A stretch of DNA of 64,000 nucleotides from Cohaesibacter sp. ES.047 (GTDB lineage: Bacteria; Pseudomonadota; Alphaproteobacteria; Rhizobiales; Cohaesibacteraceae): positions 3,302,001-3,366,000 of the forward strand of contig NZ_LT907844.1 of assembly GCF_900215505.1 (NCBI RefSeq), in the 5' to 3' direction. Below, one piece after another: positions 47,923 to 49,584 of the stretch (position 1 is its first letter; each line of letters starts with the position of its first letter). The notes under the pieces were generated by a model. The model was not told the DNA's origin. It did not search any database and saw only the letters and a program-made list of their open reading frames with translations. The position numbers and the translations under genes are program-made.

Positions 47923-48342
47923 ATGACAGCTCAGAAGGGCAAGGACCTTTTGCTCAAGGTTCGCAATCAAAGTGATGATGCCTACGTCACCGTTGCGGGA
48001 TTGCGGGCCCGCTCCATTTCATTCAATGCCGAAAGCGTCGATATCAGCCACGCCGAGTCTGCAGGACGTTGGCGGGAGTTGCTGGAAGGGGCAGGCATGC
48101 GCCGTGCCAGCCTGTCAGGTAGCGGGCTGTTCAAGGATGAAGAAAGCGATGAGCGTATCCGTTCGCTGTTCTTCGACGGCAAAATTGTCAGTTGGCAGAT
48201 TATCGTTCCGGATTTCGGTGAGCTCATCGGCCCTTTCCAGATCACGGCTCTGGAATATTCGGGCAATCACGACGCCGAGGTCACGTTCGAGTTGGCCATG
48301 GAATCTGCAGGTGCGCTGGCCTTTGTTCCAGCCTCGAGCTGA
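47923..48342 (+). CDS. GTA major tail tube protein (g9)
   Basis: The 139-residue protein is of the TP901-1-type major tail family: AQKGKDLLLKVRNQSDDAYV, SIDFNA-like core (RSISFNAESVDISHAESAGR) and RRASLSGSGLFKDEESDERI. Copies stack to form the tail tube. CAAGGAGATGC precedes the ATG. Confidence 0.93.
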   Translation: MTAQKGKDLLLKVRNQSDDAYVTVAGLRARSISFNAESVDISHAESAGRWRELLEGAGMRRASLSGSGLFKDEESDERIRSLFFDGKIVSWQIIVPDFGELIGPFQITALEYSGNHDAEVTFELAMESAGALAFVPASS

Positions 48343-48369
48343 TCTCAACCAATCCGAAAGGCAATGAAC

Positions 48370-48759
48370 ATGGCGAACCGACGTCGGGGCGAAGTAACGC
48401 TCATCCTTGATGGTAGCCCCCTTATCCTCTGCCTCACTCTTGGTGCTCTGGCCGAGCTGGAAGACAGCATGGGCCTTGCCAATATTGGCGAACTGGCCGA
48501 CCGTTTCTCTGCCGGCAAAGTCCGCAGCGCCGATCTGGTCAAGATTCTGGGAGCCGCCTTAAGAGCTGGCGGCACAAACATCACGGACCAACAGGCTGCA
48601 CGCATGCGCTGCGAAGGAGGGGCTGCGGCCCTGACAAAGGCGCTGGTCGATGTCTTGCGTCTGGCCTTTGATCCCGCGTCAGGCAACGAGCACCCACCGC
48701 ATTCCATTGATACAGCTCTCGGATCAAACGGGGAGGCGAGCAACGCAAACCCCGCCTAG
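48370..48759 (+). CDS. GTA tail assembly protein g10 (lambda G-like)
   Basis: The 129-residue protein belongs to the gene-transfer-agent g10 family, placed like lambda gpG between the tail tube and tape measure genes. Key parts are RRGEVTLILDGSPLILCLTL, GALAELEDSMGLANIGELAD and MRCEGGAAALTKALVDVLRL. It probably chaperones the tape measure. The ATG at 48370 has better spacing from AAAGG than the one at 48364. Near its end a slippery heptamer may direct part of translation into the next frame. Confidence 0.85.
   Translation: MANRRRGEVTLILDGSPLILCLTLGALAELEDSMGLANIGELADRFSAGKVRSADLVKILGAALRAGGTNITDQQAARMRCEGGAAALTKALVDVLRLAFDPASGNEHPPHSIDTALGSNGEASNANPA
48747..48753 (+). promoter_or_regulatory. 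Candidate programmed -1 frameshift site
   Basis: A AAC CCC in the g10 frame fits the X XXY YYZ slippery pattern, so both tRNAs can re-pair as AAA CCC. It lies one codon before the g10 TAG stop (48757-48759). Five bases downstream, GGCCG (48759-48763) can pair with CGGCC (48781-48785). Confidence 0.6.
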
Positions 48760-48995
48760 GCCGGTCTGACACAGCCGGATCGGCCATCAAAGCCAGCAAT
48801 TTTCCTTGGGAACTCGTCCTTACCGTCGCCATGCGCCAGTTTGGCTGGCCGCCATACCATGTCTGGCAAATGACACCAAGGGAAGTGCTTATGGCAACAG
48901 CAACATCCCTCAGCGCATCGAAGACACCAAGTCGAAACGAGCTGGATGCCCTGGCGGCCCGCTTTCCTGATATGAGGAGCACACATGACAGATGA
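48747..48995 (+). CDS. GTA tail chaperone g10.1 (rcc01693-like), reached by -1 frameshift
   Basis: The -1 frame is open from 48711 to the TGA at 48993 and encodes FPWELVLTVAMRQFGWPPYH, then VWQMTPREVLMA, matching the short rcc01693/DUF2376 tail assembly chaperones (lambda T-like). No ATG, GTG or TTG occurs in this frame before the conserved FPWE part; the first ATG lies within it. Translation by frameshift from g10 would give a g10-g10.1 fusion, as in lambda G/GT. The end overlaps the tape measure start by 11 bases. Confidence 0.7.
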   Translation, partial: KPRLGRSDTAGSAIKASNFPWELVLTVAMRQFGWPPYHVWQMTPREVLMATATSLSASKTPSRNELDALAARFPDMRSTHDR

Positions 48996-49584
48996 AGTCG
49001 TCGAAACTGCCGTTGTGCAGATTGAAGCCGATATCACAGCCTTCGCGAAAGATATGTCAGCCGCTCAAAAAGAAGCCGATATGCTTGGCGATAAGGTTTC
49101 CCGCGCCATGCAAAAGGCCTTGATGGGGAGTGCTGATCTGGAGACGGTATTCAAAAATCTCGCGCTTGATATATCAAGAAGTGCTTTTTCAGCCGGCATC
49201 TCTCCGCTAAAGGATCTGGTTTCCGGTTCCGTTTCCAACGTTGTATCAGGTCTCTTCTCCGCACTGGGGTTGTCGGCTTCGGGCTCATCCTCTCTTTTTG
49301 GGAGTATTTTTCCCTTCGCCAATGGAGGTGTAGTCGCAGGAACGACGTTGTTTCCCATGCAGTCCGGACTGGGCATGATGGGAGAGGCCGGGCCCGAGGC
49401 GATCATGCCGTTGCAGCGAGGATCGGACGGCCGGCTTGGTGTAGCCACGAGTGGCAATGGCGCAAGGCCCGTTTCGATTGTGATGAACGTCACAACACCG
49501 GACGCGGCCTCCTTCGCAAAATCGGAAAATCAAATCGCAACCAAACTCGCCCGCGCCGTCGGACGGGGACGACGCGGGCTATAA
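48985..49584 (+). CDS. GTA short tail tape measure protein (g11)
   Basis: At 199 residues this is a very short tape measure, as in R. capsulatus GTA, and fits a short tail. An N-terminal helix (VVQIEADITAFAKDMSAAQK) leads to a hydrophobic glycine/serine middle. The conserved FANGGVVAGTTLFPMQSGLG, MMGEAGPEAIMPLQRGSDG and a C-terminal VATSGNGARPVSIVMNVTTP end follow, typical of tape measures. Confidence 0.88.
   Translation: MTDEVVETAVVQIEADITAFAKDMSAAQKEADMLGDKVSRAMQKALMGSADLETVFKNLALDISRSAFSAGISPLKDLVSGSVSNVVSGLFSALGLSASGSSSLFGSIFPFANGGVVAGTTLFPMQSGLGMMGEAGPEAIMPLQRGSDGRLGVATSGNGARPVSIVMNVTTPDAASFAKSENQIATKLARAVGRGRRGL

Follow-up and report, generated by a model that had tools for sequence, protein, structure and literature searches.

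How a tail gene that lacks a start codon comes to be translated is the question raised by the locus between the tail tube and tape measure genes in the 64,000-nucleotide stretch of Cohaesibacter DNA analysed here (the window). The gene order of its head-tail cluster, together with tail-end domains specific to GTAs, assigns the cluster to the RcGTA type of gene transfer agent (GTA), a kind of domesticated phage particle by which bacterial DNA passes from cell to cell. The cluster comprises terminase, portal, protease, capsid, connector and tail completion genes, g9, g10, g10.1, the tape measure gene and the DUF2460, phiJL001 Gp84/BR0599, NlpC/P60, GTA_TIM and Rcc01698_C domains. The features of the window described below lie on the forward strand. 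The tail tube gene g9 (47923..48342) matches PF06199 with an E value of 2.3e-47, and g11 (48985..49584), whose ATG overlaps the end of g10.1, matches the RcGTA-type tape measure model NF058675 with an E value of 7.3e-53, its score of 179.5 bits lying under the model's cut-off of 220.

Between these two genes lie two overlapping reading frames, the second of which is start-less and in the -1 frame. The first, g10 (48364..48759, with a second possible start at 48370), encodes a 0-frame product of 131 aa and ends in a TAG codon at 48757..48759. Membership of PF11836 (tail assembly chaperone 1) and Foldseek comparison both place gp10 among the tail assembly chaperones: its predicted fold (mean pLDDT 80) resembles those predicted for viral tail assembly chaperones (probability 1.00, E 1.2e-3 to 5e-2), the single match at E below 0.001 among predicted viral proteins is to an unnamed protein, and no match was obtained among solved structures. 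The second frame, g10.1 (tail assembly chaperone 2, PF09550), is open at 48711..48995, with a stop codon just before it at 48708-48710 and a TGA end at 48993-48995. It also matches TIGR02216 (rcc01693 family), named after rcc01693, with a score under that model's cut-off. The first-pass annotation of this DNA had claimed that no ATG, GTG or TTG precedes the FPWE segment of g10.1, and the list of such starts for this junction is indeed empty.

Three elements are arranged around the end of g10. The slippery heptamer A_AAC_CCC (48747..48753) is in the -1 register and is separated from the TAG by one g10 codon, GCC, exactly where it had first been noticed, and a -1 slip on it runs directly into the g10.1 frame as the frames are read in the window. 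Ten nucleotides upstream of the heptamer stands a Shine-Dalgarno-like GGGGAGG (48730..48736), a proposed 5' stimulator which adds a third part to the signal as originally described. Downstream, a 5 nt spacer (GCCTA, 48754..48758) is followed by a 10-bp hairpin (48759..48785, arms 48759-48768 with 48776-48785), the proposed 3' stimulator, which begins on the final base of the g10 stop and is a fuller structure than the GGCCG/CGGCC stem originally suspected five bases after the heptamer. The stability of this hairpin is -18.2 kcal/mol (z -2.81; 3 of 200 shuffles equally stable), and it is retained when the longer stretch 48720-48830 is folded, the overall stability of that stretch being ordinary (z -0.49). 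The bare heptamer is not unusual (8 in the window versus 6.7 expected); it is the position of the heptamer, its conservation and the accompanying elements that are above chance at the junction, and not the heptamer alone; the composite AAACCCC-N5-GGCCGRTC has a single occurrence in the 5.1 Mb genome that contains the window, at this junction.

These are the three elements of a standard bacterial -1 frameshift, and programmed -1 ribosomal frameshifting, which would yield gp10 together with a gp10-gp10.1 fusion and would put the G/GT device of lambda to use in a domesticated element, is, judged from sequence, very probably the explanation of this locus. In the course of events that we infer, which extends to the slippage itself, the slip rate and the roles of both products, most ribosomes on g10 would end at the TAG at 48757 and release gp10 of 131 aa. 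Behind the decoding site, the GGGGAGG motif would pair with 16S rRNA, while the hairpin at 48759-48785 stood ahead of the ribosome, and some ribosomes would slip back one base on A_AAC_CCC, AAC/CCC re-pairing as AAA/CCC. Slipped ribosomes would go on in the g10.1 frame, reading 48753-48995 as a predicted 80 aa, and would thus produce a 210-residue gp10-gp10.1 fusion (130 + 80). If lambda is a guide, its gp10 moiety may coat the g11 product, the tape measure protein, and its gp10.1 moiety may recruit the tail tube protein (g9); the fusion would then link tape measure and tube proteins, and the frameshift would set the ratio of the two products. Two other ways of changing frame were rejected: transcriptional slippage, against which the AAACCCC run would argue in having at most four identical bases, and a +1 frameshift, as g10.1 is in the -1 frame.

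The E. coli dnaX signal, whose frameshift makes a shorter protein, differs from that of the window in its heptamer, gene and outcome. The layout is nevertheless that of dnaX, in which a Shine-Dalgarno-like motif precedes the heptamer and a 3' stem-loop follows it, according to the relevant passages of PMC5009743; in the window the motif lies 10 nt upstream and the stem-loop 5 nt downstream. The same passages give 9-14 nt as the distance from a stimulatory Shine-Dalgarno to a -1 shift site, a range that includes the 10 nt of the window, and describe the gpG/gpGT tail assembly chaperones of lambda as products of programmed -1 frameshifting (PMC5009743). As in lambda G/GT, two ORFs stand between tail tube and tape measure, the second is start-less and in the -1 frame, and a heptamer lies near the end of the first; unlike in lambda, the proteins are PF11836 and PF09550 members in a domesticated element, and the signal at loci of this kind combines an A_AAC_CCC/U heptamer and, upstream of it, a Shine-Dalgarno-like motif, accompanied in Cohaesibacter by the hairpin.

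Comparison of the junction within Cohaesibacter bears directly on two other explanations. A one-base difference would join the g10 and g10.1 frames, as expected if an assembly or sequencing error had split a single reading frame, but the relatives refute this reading: g10 is matched in 15 of the 18 genus genomes, the -1 layout without an overlapping start recurs in 12 further ones (15 with a g10 match, window included), and junctions with a heptamer come from 19 families among the matches listed, which leaves an error with a negligible probability. It might also be supposed from the lack of a start codon that g10.1 has decayed and is no longer made; this we consider very improbable, given that its PF09550 domain is intact (E 8.3e-14), that its frame and protein are conserved in the genus and beyond, and that the hairpin carries compensatory changes.

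A pattern search located the exact AAACCCC-N5-GGCCGRTC core in 11 of the 18 genus genomes (12 matches in all), whereas the reversed control pattern gave 0 matches in the same 18 genomes. A second AAACCCC-N5-GGCCGATC match in one genus genome (G577:C1:4892064-4892083) is far from its g10. An X_XXY_YYZ heptamer in the -1 register is conserved in relatives, with three exceptions in the genus: locus L067, where it is degraded to AACCCCC with the hairpin kept and no start, and loci L062 and L065, which have an ATGA stop-start overlap, no AAACCC and no hairpin of the window type. Locus L076 has AAACCCG with a different downstream sequence, and in L063, L072 and L075 an ATG, TTG or GTG occurs 6-12 nt before FPW. 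The g10 of C. celericrescens and C. marisflavi is 67% and 61% identical, respectively, and the junctions of these two species are identical to those of genus genomes L075 and L070. One further Cohaesibacter genome contains a second, weaker g10 homologue (L077, G529:C1:1195571-1195861), with no g10.1 match in that locus.

The hairpin was assessed in a genus alignment of 12 of the 15 junctions, L062, L065 and L076 being left out as they are without this hairpin form. It is kept in the aligned 12 even though the g10 stop precedes it in some and sits in its loop in others, and 97.2% of the cells of a 12-pair consensus helix pair. Two-sided changes were found in 8 cells of this helix versus a shuffled mean of 3.2 (1 of 500 shuffles as high) and its covariation score was reached by 0 of 500 shuffles, figures to be read with the helix having been defined from the consensus of the same rows used to score it; neither the count of pairs showing a two-sided change (2; 319 of 500 shuffles as high) nor that of pair types (202 of 500 as high) is above shuffles. 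The window's own 10 pairs show no two-sided change among the aligned members, their variation being one-sided only. Across the 12 heptamer-class junctions of the genus, the downstream fold has a mean z of -3.90, and the upstream motif is present in all 12 (3.7 expected). Genus conservation, hairpin covariation, the upstream Shine-Dalgarno-like motif and the lack of a start thus support the lambda-G/GT-like -1 frameshift that had been suggested on first inspection.

For the wider comparison, 385 genomes of the class, 397 of the order and 18 of the genus were searched, and the loci retained were the best 30 matches per genome search plus 80 hand-picked among the matches listed, distinct genera being favoured. 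The resulting 188 loci gave 163 junction rows, of which 146 are in the -1 frame, identical junctions being counted once; L077, L129, L174 and L186 (no g10.1 match) and L030 (no g10 match) gave no row. Either AAACCC or GGGAAAG, the latter being the lambda heptamer and used by several relatives of the window locus, occurs in 41 of the 146 -1-frame junctions, representing 19 families and 25 genera among the matches listed; 14 others have another heptamer, 53 have none and 38 have the FPW motif inside g10. A heptamer in the -1 register is found in 39 of 47 start-less linker junctions (8.8 expected from codon shuffling), the other 8 having none, and in 16 of 61 start-bearing ones (5.2 expected); as heptamers are above expectation in the latter too, the classes are not cleanly exclusive. 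Loci L004, L056, L126 and L147 are start-less -1-frame junctions with no -1-register heptamer in the part of g10 tested.

The elements that accompany the heptamer in the window are not equally distributed among these junctions. The upstream motif is present in 34 of the 41 AAACCC/GGGAAAG junctions (12.0 expected) and in 8 of 48 NTGA junctions without these heptamers (9.6 expected), a control placed relative to stop-10 and repeated relative to the start in the count of 44 given below. The 43 nt after the heptamer have a mean fold z of -1.91 in the 41 junctions versus -0.23 in the 48 NTGA junctions. Outside the genus (discovery set, n = 29) the hairpin signal is modest, with a mean z of -0.94 and 38% below -1.5, and the upstream motif is present in 22 of the 29 heptamer junctions (8.2 expected). 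The heptamer and upstream motif are therefore widespread, while a strong hairpin is a feature of Cohaesibacter and some others.

A Shine-Dalgarno-like motif could also serve reinitiation, and ribosomes might begin g10.1 separately, whether by termination-reinitiation or at a non-canonical start codon close to the g10 stop. Such coupling has a parallel in the NTGA overlap found in 52 of the 146 -1-frame relatives, including L062 and L065 of the same genus, a count that is partly trivial because any TGA stop that follows A, G or T creates such an overlap. The fairer contrasts used for this reason were an ATG at the overlap and the position of the motif. An ATG overlaps the stop in 1 of the 41 heptamer junctions versus 26 of the 53 without a heptamer. 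The former end in TAG (22), TAA (7) or TGA (12), with an overlapping NTGA start also present in 4 of them, and of the 53 without a heptamer 47 end in TGA, including 26 with ATGA. At the spacing that would serve a start at the stop, the motif is almost absent from the heptamer junctions (1 of 41; 8.5 expected), as opposed to 16 of 44 no-heptamer NTGA junctions with the motif at the start-serving position (7.6 expected); the upstream motif is placed by the heptamer, at the position for a -1 shift, and not by the stop. In the window itself g10 ends in TAG, with no NTGA overlap and no ATG, GTG or TTG, and a non-canonical start was rejected for want of a conserved candidate in the genus, where no near-cognate codon position between -18 and +57 of the heptamer is shared by more than 2 of 11 members. 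Independent translation would, moreover, leave the heptamer and hairpin unexplained, and we regard it as unlikely. The frameshift device is nevertheless not universal in GTAs, an overlapping NTGA start being present in many relatives, including two Cohaesibacter genomes.

In the group with FPW inside g10 (e.g. L006, L032, L039 and L060), 37 of the 38 junctions have no start in the last 45 nt. The FPW motif was located by script in 30, of which 18 have CCCTTT there and 18 have the upstream motif (9.6 expected); structure downstream is not enriched among these 30. The heptamer C_CCT_TTC is common in this group; the use of TTT versus TTC in FPW was rejected as a sign of slippage on it, as TTT is favoured in start-bearing relatives too. 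Of the 163 junction rows, 14 were scored with g10.1 in the +1 frame and 3 with it in frame with g10. An ATG, GTG or TTG lies within the tested span in 12 of 15 such rows, a count which leaves out the second rows of L036 and L146, and none is present in L027, L094 and L156.

An independent set was assembled from the best 80 viral-collection loci and five phage records; these 85 loci gave 80 new junctions, 79 of them in the -1 frame, after four duplicates and one locus without g10.1 were dropped. Among its contigs of about 14 kb, many probably represent GTA clusters that were classified as viral, and the set is thus independent by sequence and not by kind; among L192-L271, many IMG/VR contigs of about this length that match g10 have the appearance of GTA clusters. 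In the 22 junctions with AAACCC or GGGAAAG, the upstream motif is again frequent (16 of 22; 5.2 expected) and the sequence downstream forms less stable folds than its shuffles (mean z +0.45, p 0.013). A TTG (15) or GTG (4) overlaps the stop in 19 of these 22, which makes frameshifting less certain in this set. In 15 of the 22, AAACCCT stands directly before TGA, where the stop itself may act as the pause or the overlap may act as a start. The AAACCCT-TGA of L189, L196, L203 and others is often followed by GCCGCAG.

Three annotated phage records related by g10 carry a heptamer at the junction: MW462191 and MW091529, environmental contigs that might be GTA clusters, have AAACCCT-TGA, and OP947159 (Desulfofustis phage, recorded complete) has G_GGA_AAC with GGAGG upstream. 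These heptamers are consistent with, and do not prove, inheritance of the signal from a phage. In three public phage records the annotated start of the second chaperone is an ATG immediately downstream of FPW (TPW), in L189:1884-2063, L190:1905-2063 and L191:1878-2063, and the annotation would therefore leave out the slip-reached part of this protein.

RcGTA has a homologous g10 and second tail chaperone in the same gene order, the latter being named g10.5 in passages of PMC11409702 and g10.1 in passages of PMC9765227, and the word frameshift is absent from PMC11409702 (main text). The literature searched, most subscription journals lying outside it, gave no mention of frameshifting between g10 and g10.1 in any GTA: the passages concerned of PMC10299305, PMC8601537, PMC9765227, PMC11409702, PMC10783043, PMC3610622, PMC10721106, PMC3711429, PMC5009743 and PMC9022992 hold none, and the terms looked for do not occur in PMC7296036. 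The R. capsulatus phage RcZahn is described in PMC8601537, within its relevant passages, as without clear evidence of the usual tail-chaperone frameshift, unlike most phages therein, and frameshifting in the tail chaperone cluster of an HK97-like phage is put at 7% in PMC3711429. Within the same partial coverage of the literature, no description was found of how the tail assembly proteins of a GTA are dosed. Retention of a frameshift by a domesticated element would point to continuing selection on the ratio of the chaperones, and this would speak for a particle that works.

The presence of ATGA in place of the signal in two genomes of the same genus indicates that the coupling of the two chaperones has switched. 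We lean towards the view that it is interchangeable in GTAs, and perhaps in their ancestral phages, a -1 frameshift fusion and an NTGA-coupled free second chaperone having replaced one another many times, even within Cohaesibacter. If this is true, such tails do not depend on the fusion itself, only on the second chaperone being supplied in a coupled way and at a lower level; the contrast between frameshift and ATGA within one genus makes it testable whether tails need the fusion or the second domain only. A tree of g9, g10 and g10.1 that was restricted to 73 clear cases, of which 37 are frameshift and 36 ATGA/GTGA junctions, requires a minimum of 13 changes, with 12-14 in bootstraps and 6 forced by starred branches, versus a shuffled mean of 24.6; the bootstrap of this strict tree, from which 73 of the 146 rows were left out, was not yet stable. 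When all 146 rows were placed on a quick tree, there were 24 changes between the 67 junctions of frameshift-like type and the 52 with a start, the other 27 being uncounted, and the changes on both trees, which are unrooted and built from short proteins, carry no direction.
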